A stretch of 64,000 bases of DNA, taken from contig SNWL01000005.1 in NCBI GenBank assembly GCA_004362315.1, positions 682,001 to 746,000 of the forward strand, read 5' to 3'. The DNA is from Mycobacterium sp. BK086. GTDB lineage: Bacteria; Actinomycetota; Actinomycetes; Mycobacteriales; Mycobacteriaceae. Below, in pieces: positions 3,134 through 50,451 of the stretch (its first letter is position 1; every line of letters begins with the position of its first letter). Below the pieces are notes generated by a model. It saw nothing but the letters and a program-made list of their open reading frames with translations. It ran no database searches and was not told the DNA's origin. Both the position numbers and the translations under genes were made by a program.

Positions 3134-3613
3134 TCACTTCGGCGGGCGTGACACGCACTGCGCGGAGTAGAGCTCCACGCCCAGCTTGTCCATCAGCTCG
3201 AGCTGCGTCTCGAGGTAGTCGATGTGGTGCTCTTCGTCGGCGACGATCTCTTCGAACAGATTGGCCGTGGTGGAGTCCAGCTTCTCGCGGCACAGGATGA
3301 TGGCCGGCTTGAGGCGACCGACCACCTCGTACTCGATCGCGAGATCGCTCTCGAACTGTTCGCGCAGCGTCTGCCCGACGCGCAGCGATCCCAGCCGCTG
3401 GTAGTTCGGCAGACCGTCGAGGAGCAGGATGCGGTCGGTGATCGCCTCGGCGTGCCGCATCTCGTCGAAGGACTCGTCCCGGGTGTGCTTGGCGAGCTCG
3501 GTGAACCCCCAGTTGTCCTGCATCTTCGAGTGCAGGAAGTACTGATTGATAGCGGTCAACTCGCTGGTGAGTTGCTCGTTGAGCAGGCGAAGAACTTCCG
3601 GATCACCCTGCAT
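3134..3613 (-). CDS. bfrA: Bacterioferritin BfrA (heme-containing ferritin, iron storage)
   Basis: 159 residues, the same length as M. tuberculosis BfrA. Ferroxidase ligands E18, E51, H54 and the DEEHH segment around residues 126-130 are present, as is the heme ligand M52 (FDEMRHAE). 24-mers oxidise Fe(II) and store it as ferric mineral. The start is fixed at 3613 by a strong ribosome binding site (GGGGGGAGA, a few bases upstream), so the longer frame to 3670 is not used. A TAGGGT -10 element lies about 33 bp upstream (3646-3651). The IdeR box at 3714-3732 would then sit upstream of the promoter, the arrangement in which IdeR with iron activates storage genes. Divergent from bfd. Confidence 0.95.
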   Translation of the reverse strand: MQGDPEVLRLLNEQLTSELTAINQYFLHSKMQDNWGFTELAKHTRDESFDEMRHAEAITDRILLLDGLPNYQRLGSLRVGQTLREQFESDLAIEYEVVGRLKPAIILCREKLDSTTANLFEEIVADEEHHIDYLETQLELMDKLGVELYSAQCVSRPPK

Positions 3614-3713: not shown

Positions 3714-3732
3714 TAAGGTTAGTCTGCACTAA
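3714..3732. promoter_or_regulatory. IdeR iron box between bfrA and bfd
   Basis: TAAGGTTAGTCTGCACTAA matches the 19-bp IdeR consensus TTAGGTTAGGCTAACCTAA at 14 of 19 positions. Partial half-sites continue to the left (TAGGCAGGCCTAAC). It is 45 bp upstream of bfd and about 100 bp upstream of the bfrA start. Inference: activation of bfrA and repression of bfd by IdeR-Fe. Confidence 0.7.
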
Positions 3733-46080: not shown

Positions 46081-47800
<1,720 letters not shown>

Positions 47801-48471: not shown

Positions 48472-48900
48472 CTAGCTCGGCGGCGGCTCCGGCTCGAGGT
48501 TCTGCAGGCGCACCTGGCCGCGAGCGAGGAGGCGGTCCTTGTCGTCGCGAATCGTGACCAGCCACAGCTGCTGGCGCCGGCCGCGGTGGATGGGCTCGGT
48601 GACCCCGTAGACGGTGCCTTCGCCGATCGCCCGCAGGAAGTCGGTGTTGTTGTTGACGCCGACGACGTTGCCTCCGCCGTTGGCCGCCAGCCAGACAAAG
48701 GCCGAGGTGCTGGCCATCGATTCGATCATCGAGCAGTACACGCCGCCGTGGACGATGCCCATCGGCTGCAGCAGCTTGGGCTGGACCTCCAGCTGTGCCT
48801 TGGCGCCCTCCGGCGTCAGCTCGGTGAACACCAGGCCGAGCTCGTTGTCGAACGGGGCGGAGAAAGCGATCTGCTCGATCGGCGACTGCTCTGATTGCAC
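48472..48900 (-). CDS. Hotdog-fold thioesterase (Rv1847-like)
   Basis: 142 residues. MGIVHGGVYCSMIESMASTSAFVWL near residue 50 is the PaaI/4HBT helix with its conserved HGG, and the GNVVGVNNNTDFLRAIGEGTV strand block follows. Hydrolyses an acyl-CoA, substrate unknown. It lies just upstream of ureA, as Rv1847 does, and downstream of the MrsI sRNA. Confidence 0.85.
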   Translation of the reverse strand: MQSEQSPIEQIAFSAPFDNELGLVFTELTPEGAKAQLEVQPKLLQPMGIVHGGVYCSMIESMASTSAFVWLAANGGGNVVGVNNNTDFLRAIGEGTVYGVTEPIHRGRRQQLWLVTIRDDKDRLLARGQVRLQNLEPEPPPS

Positions 48901-48928: not shown

Positions 48929-49034
48929 GGGACGGGCCCCGCGTATGAACGCGGGGCCCGTCCTCAGCACGGACCGGGGTGTCACTGCAGCCCTCAGGAC
49001 ATCCGGCGCGGTCCGTTCGTCTTTTGTTGTGTGC
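48929..49034 (-). ncRNA. mrsI: Iron-responsive small RNA MrsI (probable orthologue)
   Basis: About 106 nt on the minus strand from a start near 49034 to the end of a terminator hairpin. The promoter has an IdeR box within its spacer, so transcription should occur only under iron limitation. M. tuberculosis MrsI (ncRv11846) is a roughly 100-nt IdeR-controlled sRNA encoded next to blaI/Rv1846c and reported to lower bfrA mRNA; blaI and the Rv1847-like gene flank this one in the same order. A segment GTGACACCCC (48985-48976) can pair with the bfrA ribosome binding site and start region. Ends are predicted from motifs, not mapped. Confidence 0.75.
48930..48963 (-). terminator. Terminator hairpin of MrsI
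   Basis: GGACGGGCCCCGCGT (48930-48944) and ACGCGGGGCCCGTCC (48949-48963) form a perfect 15-bp stem with a 4-base loop, the strongest hairpin in the window. It ends 30 bp before the thioesterase start. Confidence 0.8.
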
Positions 49035-49039
49035 CTATC

Positions 49040-49068
49040 ACCATAGGCAAGGCTTGCCTAACTCACAA
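49040..49068 (-). promoter_or_regulatory. MrsI promoter with IdeR box in the spacer
   Basis: On the minus strand TTGTGA (49068-49063), 17 bp, TATGGT (49045-49040). The spacer and first bases of the -10 are an IdeR box (49043-49061) with 14 of 19 consensus matches and 8-bp perfect arms (TAGGCAAG/CTTGCCTA). IdeR-Fe would block polymerase binding. Confidence 0.8.
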
Positions 49069-49071
49069 GAC

Positions 49072-49791
49072 CTACCCTGTCCGCCGCAGCGCACGGACCG
49101 GGAGCCCGAAATTGGTCAGAGCGTCGAGCACGGCCTGGCCGCGACGCATGCAGGTCACTTCGCCGTTGCCGGTGAGCATCGGTACCTGGGTGGCGGTGAT
49201 GACCACGGCGGAGCCGACCATCTGCCACATCGCGGGCCGCGAGAGTGAGCCACGGCTGAGGTCGTGCAGGGCGTCGAAGATCGGTTCGAGCGAGCGGTGG
49301 CAGCGGTGCGCGGTCCATGTCGCCAGTGCGAGCTCGTTGGGCAGGCGAACCACGTCGGTCATCGCCGGATCGTCGGGCAGCACGCGCAACGTCGGGTCCA
49401 CCACCGCGGTCCAGTCGATCGTGCCCTCCGAGTCGACGTGCATCCAGAGATTGCCCGGCCCGGTGTCCCACACCCGGCCCTCGAGTACGAACAGCGTCAC
49501 CGCCCGGCCCAGCACCGCGTGGGTGAAGGTGGCCGCCAGTTGTTGGGCCACCGCGCGCCGGTCGCCCAGCTCGTCGACCGCGGCTTCGAACATGGCCGCC
49601 AGCCGGCCTGTCGTCGTCACCGAGTCCAGCGCCCACCAGCGCCGTCGCGACACATCGGCCATCACCGCCACCCCGTGCACCCGCGGTGAATCCGGGCTCA
49701 GCCTGCGCAGGCGGCTGCTGGACTCATGCAACGGCAGGATGCGGCGAATGGTCATTCCGTCGATCAACGGGTCAACCACGGCTGTGGTCAC
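49072..49791 (-). CDS. IdeR-controlled FhuF / IucA-IucC C-terminal-like protein
   Basis: 239 residues, GTG start with GGAGG just upstream. The pattern RRAVAQQLAATFTHAVLGRAVTLFVLEGRVWD, then NLWMHVDSEGTIDW and later SRGSLSRPAMWQMVGSAV resembles the FhuF-type ferric siderophore reductase fold. The C-terminal CC-x10-C-x2-C cluster of classic FhuF is absent; only two Cys occur. Two IdeR boxes lie upstream, so it should be induced by iron starvation. It could bind or reduce ferric siderophores with another cofactor. Not in M. tuberculosis at this locus. Confidence 0.6.
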   Translation of the reverse strand: MTTAVVDPLIDGMTIRRILPLHESSSRLRRLSPDSPRVHGVAVMADVSRRRWWALDSVTTTGRLAAMFEAAVDELGDRRAVAQQLAATFTHAVLGRAVTLFVLEGRVWDTGPGNLWMHVDSEGTIDWTAVVDPTLRVLPDDPAMTDVVRLPNELALATWTAHRCHRSLEPIFDALHDLSRGSLSRPAMWQMVGSAVVITATQVPMLTGNGEVTCMRRGQAVLDALTNFGLPVRALRRTG

Positions 49792-49811: not shown

Positions 49812-49830
49812 TTAGGTGAGCCTAACCATA
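49812..49830. promoter_or_regulatory. IdeR box 1 upstream of the FhuF-like gene
   Basis: TTAGGTGAGCCTAACCATA has 15 of 19 matches to the IdeR consensus, 20 bp before the GTG. It overlaps a TATGGT -10 element on the minus strand (49830-49825). Confidence 0.8.
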
Positions 49831-49840
49831 AGAGGCCGAG

Positions 49841-49859
49841 GAAGGTTAGCATTGCCTAA
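49841..49859. promoter_or_regulatory. IdeR box 2 upstream of the FhuF-like gene
   Basis: GAAGGTTAGCATTGCCTAA has 13 of 19 matches and lies 29 bp from box 1 (start to start), close to three helical turns, allowing cooperative IdeR binding. Nothing else is seen in 49860-50034 apart from the blaI leader. Confidence 0.6.
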
Positions 49860-50034: not shown

Positions 50035-50451
50035 ATGGCCAAGTTGACTCGTCTCGGCGAACTTGAACGCGCGGTGATGGACCACTTGTGGGCCGCTGGT
50101 GAGCCATTGACGGTTCGTCAGGTCCACGAGGCCCTCTGTACCGAGCGCGATCTGGCCTACACCACGGTCATGACCGTCCTGCAGCGCCTCGCCCGCAAGA
50201 ACCTGGTCTCCCAGATCCGCGATGACCGGGCTCACCAGTACGCCCCGGTCCACGGCCGCGACGAACTCGTCGCCGGCCTCATGGTCGACGCACTCGATCA
50301 GGCGTCGGACTCCGGCGGCCGGCAGGCCGCGCTGGTGCATTTCGTCGAGCGGGTCGGCGTCGACGAGGCGGACGCCTTGCGCCGCGCGCTGGCGGAATTA
50401 GAATCCAGAAACCGTTCAACCTGGCCCGCTGGCGGCGCGCCTAGCGTCTGA
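50035..50451 (+). CDS. blaI: BlaI/MecI-family repressor (Rv1846c)
   Basis: 138 residues, as in M. tuberculosis. Winged-helix domain (LGELERAVMDHLWAAGEPLTVRQVHEAL, LAYTTVMTVLQRLARKNLV), then a dimerisation helix. It represses beta-lactam-responsive genes until cleaved by a BlaR-type peptidase. The M56 peptidase gene follows by 14 bp. The leader holds GGTAGTAACCGGGAGTACT (49988-50006), a possible but weak self-operator. Confidence 0.9.
   Translation: MAKLTRLGELERAVMDHLWAAGEPLTVRQVHEALCTERDLAYTTVMTVLQRLARKNLVSQIRDDRAHQYAPVHGRDELVAGLMVDALDQASDSGGRQAALVHFVERVGVDEADALRRALAELESRNRSTWPAGGAPSV

Follow-up and report, generated by a model that had tools for sequence, protein, structure and literature searches.

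A stretch of 64,000 nucleotides from Mycobacterium sp. BK086 (contig SNWL01000005.1, positions 682,001 to 746,000; hereafter the window) encodes on its minus strand a structured small RNA of about 105 nucleotides (48930..49034), whose 5' end is placed from its -10 element and its 3' end from a terminator-like hairpin. Synteny, architecture and a covariance model support it as this organism's orthologue of MrsI, the small RNA also known as ncRv11846 in Mycobacterium tuberculosis. We consider it likely that this orthologue is made from an IdeR-switched promoter, and that its apical loop AGGGCUG makes a kissing contact with leaders displaying CAGCCC and so lowers the messages of iron proteins. 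On balance we also lean towards a broader proposition, in which MrsI serves most genera of its family as their iron-sparing RNA, its invariant loop kisses CAGCCC in leader loops of bfrA and hypF, and the docking loop was lost from the bfrA leader upon loss of MrsI.

The promoter can be read directly from the minus strand (49068-49040), as a preliminary description of this DNA had proposed: a -35 hexamer TTGTGA (49063..49068) and a -10 hexamer TATGGT (49040..49045) flank a spacer of 17 nucleotides (49062-49046). The near-perfect IdeR palindrome claimed for the spacer is likewise present: the 19-mer TTAGGCAAGCCTTGCCTAT (49043..49061, minus strand) occupies the spacer and extends over half of the -10 element, and it differs at one position from the consensus pattern TTAGGNNAGNCTNNCCTAA. 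Matches to this pattern with up to three mismatches number four in the window against 0.23 expected, a count reached by none of 100 shuffles; they comprise the promoter box, two boxes before a neighbouring gene of 239 amino acids and one before bfrA. Among the mycobacterial loci that carry the RNA, a box with at most two mismatches recurs in 122 of 127. These box-bearing loci have a -10 of the form TANNNT in 121 cases and a -35 with TTG in 119, the spacer measuring 18 nucleotides in 106 and 17 in 13. The remaining five comprise a box with an insertion (L129), a decayed locus (L180), a locus with no box (L012), one cut by its contig end (L070) and one (L173) whose box, visible in the locus itself, was cut by the scanned stretch. 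From this arrangement of box and promoter, the small RNA is probably switched on under iron scarcity.

The minus strand from 49036 to 48926 folds at -61.3 kcal/mol (z -5.67), a value equalled by none of 200 shuffles. Its first hairpin (48969..49016, from the fold and the covariance model), the proposed targeting domain, bears the seven-nucleotide apical loop AGGGCUG (48988..48994), in which GGGCUG is the proposed seed. The second hairpin (48930..48963) is a terminator-like stem that lacks a U run; its arms (48963-48949 and 48944-48930) pair perfectly over exactly 15 base pairs around the four-nucleotide loop UCAU. It begins 76 nucleotides past the -10, and is the perfect 15-base-pair hairpin that had been noted some 80 nucleotides downstream. 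Nor does any credible open reading frame fit this non-coding RNA, as had also been stated: the only minus-strand frame of at least 20 amino acids starting inside it is a 24-amino-acid GTG frame (48985-48911) that overruns the RNA end, and the remaining listed frames are on the plus strand or end ahead of the RNA start. A search of Rfam over the RNA gave no family at the gathering score.

The locus lies just upstream, on the same strand, of a thioesterase gene (48472..48900, minus; PF03061, 53.3 bits) which, from synteny, we take to be the counterpart of Rv1847. Beyond this gene lies ureA, and on the other side are a blaI-like repressor gene (50035..50451, plus; PF03965, 100.8 bits) and blaR. 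The preliminary description had put the RNA between the blaI side and the Rv1847-like gene; the position beside the latter stands, and the 239-amino-acid gene that intervenes on the blaI side had been overlooked. In M. tuberculosis MrsI is located between blaI and rv1847, on the plus strand at 2096766-2096867, according to excerpts of one paper (PMC8628891). Excerpts of this and two further papers (PMC8628891, PMC11188477, PMC12101431) give its length, place, IdeR box, six-nucleotide seed and seven-nucleotide loop, and name bfrA, hypF and fprA as targets; an excerpt of another reports higher expression in low iron (PMC7029489). The identification as MrsI made in the preliminary description gains support from these traits: apart from the extra gene, the window RNA has the same position and orientation, an IdeR box in its promoter by sequence match, a predicted structure of about 100 nucleotides with a terminator hairpin and ends estimated as above, and a seven-nucleotide apical loop (AGGGCUG at 48994-48988) whose six-nucleotide seed is presumably the published one. 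As to the complement of the seed in this genome's leaders, hypF has CAGCCC and bfrA does not.

Conservation across Mycobacterium concurs with this identification. An Rv1847-like match exists in all 148 genomes of the genus examined, in a few weakly, and plain DNA comparison matched the RNA region in 122 of the 148. A profile search in a set of 147 loci, 146 of them with an Rv1847 match, recovered the RNA upstream of that match in 127 of the 146; among the 19 RNA-less loci, one (L105) has nearly no contig room and one genome (G030) has a match about 5 kb away. We built a covariance model, R1, from 24 sequences including the window RNA, which it matches at 49032-48931 with 93.1 bits, as one of its own sequences. 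In the 24-sequence alignment 14 of 28 pairs show changes in both partners, where shuffles give 5.1 (none of 500 as high), a signal that is lost when the pair partners are slid, and 11 of the 14 modelled pairs of the second hairpin show double changes. R1 matches occur in 338 of 396 Mycobacterium genomes. Among the 80 titled loci listed, 64 have a match, including those of M. gastri, M. persicum, M. szulgai, M. simiae and M. lepraemurium, and 16, three of them titled Mycolicibacter, have no RNA in the flanks examined; 36 of the 64 were inspected, with the loop in 36 and the box in 34. The loop AGGGCUG is present in all 127 mycobacterial loci, closed by the triplets CTG/CAG in 120, CAG/CTG in six and CTG/CCG in one. 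Weak opposite-strand R1 matches (24 to 37 bits) overlap the palindromic hairpins and were hence not counted. Several Mycobacterium genomes (e.g. G370 and G192) have two R1 matches, which may be second copies or such opposite-strand echoes. In a genome of 3.27 Mb (L180, G075) we observed a decayed MrsI of 31 bits, in which the loop is kept, the box and terminator are degenerate, and the bfrA leader is without CAGCCC.

Across the family R1 matches 227 of 301 genomes, in 22 of 31 genera. We inspected 20 loci, drawn from 15 of the genera outside Mycobacterium; the six further genera with matches include the weakest (g4, E 8e-5 to 7e-4). All 20 match R1 end to end and have the loop AGGGCUG. Close to the RNA start, their best IdeR-type box has one mismatch in 12 loci, two in four and three in four. 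The Rv1847-like gene follows the RNA in 19 of the 20, and a gene of the 239-amino-acid type precedes it in 14, a blaI-like gene being upstream in the other six. From these matches the MrsI locus looks old in this family. An order-wide scan gave matches in 35 of 249 genomes, from five genera that all belong to the window's own family, under stricter filters by which weak outliers may have been missed. A literature search found no report of MrsI outside mycobacteria or of MrsI target hairpins, though it did not cover the primary paper (PNAS 2018), which may describe them.

The 239-amino-acid gene (49072..49791, minus) ends with its stop codon 3 nucleotides ahead of the -35 of the RNA. Its product has no match in Pfam and NCBIfam, is predicted to have a FhuF/IucA-like fold, and is preceded by two IdeR-type boxes, one at 49812..49830 (two mismatches) and one toward blaI at 49841..49859 (three mismatches). 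Genes of this type sit upstream of the RNA wherever they are found, with an IdeR-like box within 200 nucleotides upstream in 78 of 79 mycobacterial loci, and the gene is an old neighbour of the RNA. Conceivably, the RNA is not independent: the message of this gene, which has its own IdeR boxes, would carry it as its 3' end, and the hairpin would be that gene's terminator. The short distance and the conserved boxes of the gene are in keeping with such an origin, and so is a single Mycobacterium locus (L012, G098) in which the RNA, without its own box or promoter, directly follows the stop codon by a few bases; there it may have turned into a 3'-end RNA of the IdeR-boxed gene. Against it, the RNA has its own box and -10 nearly throughout the mycobacterial loci, and it is found without the gene in 48 of them, whereas the gene is never found without the RNA (both in 79, gene alone in none, neither in 19). 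We therefore hold a 3'-end origin of the window RNA to be very unlikely, in favor of an independently promoted MrsI.

The targets of this RNA can be approached from the leaders of the genes reported as its targets elsewhere. The window itself holds what is presumably bfrA, for bacterioferritin (3134..3613, minus), for which control by MrsI has been reported in other species; an IdeR-type box of two mismatches lies upstream of it (3714..3732). In the first 30 Mycobacterium bfrA leaders read, the commonest hexamer is CAGCCC, which is exactly complementary to the GGGCUG of the MrsI loop. It occurs in 21 of these leaders, where 300 shuffles gave a mean of 3.0 and at most 9. In a set of 69 bfrA leaders, the start codons and leader ends of which were all re-checked, CAGCCC is present in 39 of 53 MrsI-bearing and in none of 16 MrsI-lacking mycobacterial genomes (Fisher's p 7.6e-8, ignoring kinship); a set thinned at 0.70 similarity still gives 20 of 29 against 0 of 7. 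Genomes were labelled MrsI-lacking when the scan of 396 genomes gave no R1 match under strict filters, and renewed search of the stretch near Rv1847 in 14 of the 16 (all save G115 and G181) gave no match except the decayed one in G075. For hypF, all 11 of the leaders classed by eye, out of 30 loci, as the gene's own hold CAGCCC, the window genome's own hypF leader being one of them; two of the other 19 loci also have it, with weak stems. Across the window CAGCCCT shows no enrichment (6 against 8.3 expected). Duplex energies of MrsI with bfrA or hypF were set aside because they ignore the RNAs' own folding. In the hypF leader of the window genome (L305) a CTCAGGA that overlaps the likely ribosome site complements UCCUGAG, which in MrsI lies immediately 5' of the loop and reaches into it, a possible second contact between the two RNAs. 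The same genome has a second BfrA-like gene (L297, G000:C2:609241-609714), 89% identical, and the stretch of its leader that was read is without CAGCCC.

In these leaders CAGCCC is not merely present but is displayed in hairpin loops, as in GGTGCGC(gCAGCCCa)GCGCACC from a Mycobacterium, ACCGTCG(CAGCCC)CGACGGT from another genus, and CGCGT(ggaCAGCCCatcg)ACGCG from the hypF leader of the window genome, with a loop probability of 0.92. The mean best-stem score around CAGCCC is 13.8 for bfrA (n=39) against 9.0 with shuffled flanks, 16.6 for bfrA of other genera (n=5) against 8.2, and 18.0 for hypF (n=13) against 9.6; the window's 87 CAGCCC score 8.9. Display, measured as the sampled probability of finding the whole hexamer within a single hairpin loop, averages 0.53 over 57 bfrA sites against 0.10 with shuffled flanks (maximum 0.18 in 20), 0.62 over 7 sites of other genera against 0.08 (maximum 0.28) and 0.79 over 11 sites of hypF leaders against 0.08 (maximum 0.19), whereas all 87 CAGCCC of the window average 0.04. 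At least one site with a probability of 0.5 or more is found in 30 of 39 bfrA loci, 4 of 5 from other genera and 9 of 11 for hypF. A count made without reference to the motif also returned CAGCCC as the hexamer most often displayed in loops, in 25 of 53 bfrA leaders, the next (11) being a one-base shift of it. The stems of 21 hairpins show 3 to 6 pair types per position, though these hairpins were chosen for good stems and their pairing is thus by selection. Taken as a comparison of leaders, this suggests that MrsI meets its targets by loop-to-loop, or kissing, contact.

A simpler mode of recognition, in which the loop of an MrsI orthologue acts as a linear seed on any single-stranded CAGCCC, a hairpin there being incidental to the folding of the leader, would accord with excerpts of reviews that mention the six-nucleotide seed and apical loop and, in those excerpts, no target hairpins for MrsI, and with the 9 of 39 CAGCCC-bearing bfrA loci that have no site reaching a loop probability of 0.5. 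It fits less well with a loop display about five times that of shuffled flanks and far above that of the window's other CAGCCC, or with stems that, in the hairpins chosen for good stems, keep pairing through changes of pair type, and we consider it possible but rather unlikely.

Several observations weigh against the proposed targeting or its generality. The bfrA leader of the window has CAGCC and not CAGCCC, and the hexamer is found in none of the 7 bfrA leaders of the window genome's clade; in this organism MrsI may control bfrA weakly or not at all. Fourteen of the 53 MrsI-bearing genomes lack CAGCCC in the bfrA leader. On a BfrA tree of 44 of the 69 genomes MrsI changes three times, with a single independent pair on well supported branches, so that kinship weakens the contrast between MrsI-bearing and MrsI-lacking genomes, and a sign test on independent losses has too few pairs to reach significance. 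Two of the 16 MrsI-lacking genomes are incomplete assemblies (G005, 84%; G025, 80%), relatedness of the species makes their target hairpins dependent observations, and the choice of hypF leaders by eye counts the same way. Among 20 genomes of other genera searched for bfrA, 14 had a match and 12 strong leaders were read, of which 7 are without CAGCCC.

It might also be supposed that a protein or some other partner binds the CAGCCC hairpins of bfrA and hypF leaders, their match to the MrsI loop being due to chance. The invariance of that loop leaves room for this, since covariation between loop and site therefore cannot be seen, as does the presence of CAGCCC in only 5 of the 12 bfrA leaders from other genera. 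Yet the hexamer is absent from every one of the MrsI-lacking genomes, and MrsI has been reported to target bfrA as well as hypF; we regard a chance match as quite unlikely.

The kissing contact with MrsI, together with the promoter, allows a mechanism to be proposed. In the presence of iron, IdeR would occupy the box that spans the spacer and -10, blocking the promoter. In its absence the promoter would open and the RNA of about 105 nucleotides would be made, ending at the U-less 15-base-pair hairpin. The first hairpin would present AGGGCUG, which, going by the comparative evidence, could form a 6-base-pair kissing contact with CAGCCC in a hairpin loop of a target leader, and through this contact the messages of dispensable iron proteins would be translated less or become less stable. 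In other species MrsI is reported to repress bfrA, hypF and fprA (PMC8628891, PMC11188477, PMC12101431). In the window genome the visible candidate target of the displayed-hexamer kind would be hypF, bfrA being without the exact hexamer.

Two observations concern the urease region of this genome. An Rfam match to 5_ureB_sRNA (85.5 bits, 47348-47639, plus strand) lies antisense to the coding sequence of the urease alpha subunit, and may reflect merely conserved coding sequence. A second urease gamma match is present at G000:C2:685169-685462, besides that of the window.

The RNA belongs to a kind already known, as the orthologue of a described regulator; the news, if true, lies in loop-loop targeting and in its family-wide range. 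The comparison adds a testable target code for MrsI, in which a loop reads a displayed loop, and a covariance model for an RNA over which Rfam gave no family at its gathering score. It also adds a range taking in 15 non-mycobacterial genera that were inspected, natural losses of MrsI with which the code could be tested, and an old IdeR-boxed neighbour gene with an FhuF-like predicted fold.

Among known systems, first contact between small RNA and message through two loops is familiar from the kissing pairs OxyS-fhlA and RNAIII-rot, which are unrelated RNAs of other organisms and respond to other signals. RyhB of enterobacteria is an iron-repressed small RNA that lowers iron-using proteins; it and the staphylococcal IsrR differ from MrsI in repressors and partners, and we claim no sequence relation to either. 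IsrR of Staphylococcus likewise is an iron-repressed small RNA that lowers iron-using proteins, by the excerpt of PMC12101431. The 6C/B11 RNA (RF01066) resembles the window RNA as an actinobacterial small RNA with two hairpins, and was rejected as a candidate since its match (28.3 bits at 48991-48927) falls below the gathering score of 47. With MrsI / ncRv11846, known from M. tuberculosis and M. smegmatis, the window RNA is compared by published description: the Rv1847-side locus, strand, length of about 100 nucleotides, IdeR box, seven-nucleotide apical loop and terminator hairpin are shared, whereas the window locus differs in the IdeR-boxed gene between blaI and the RNA, and its species in a bfrA leader without the exact seed complement.
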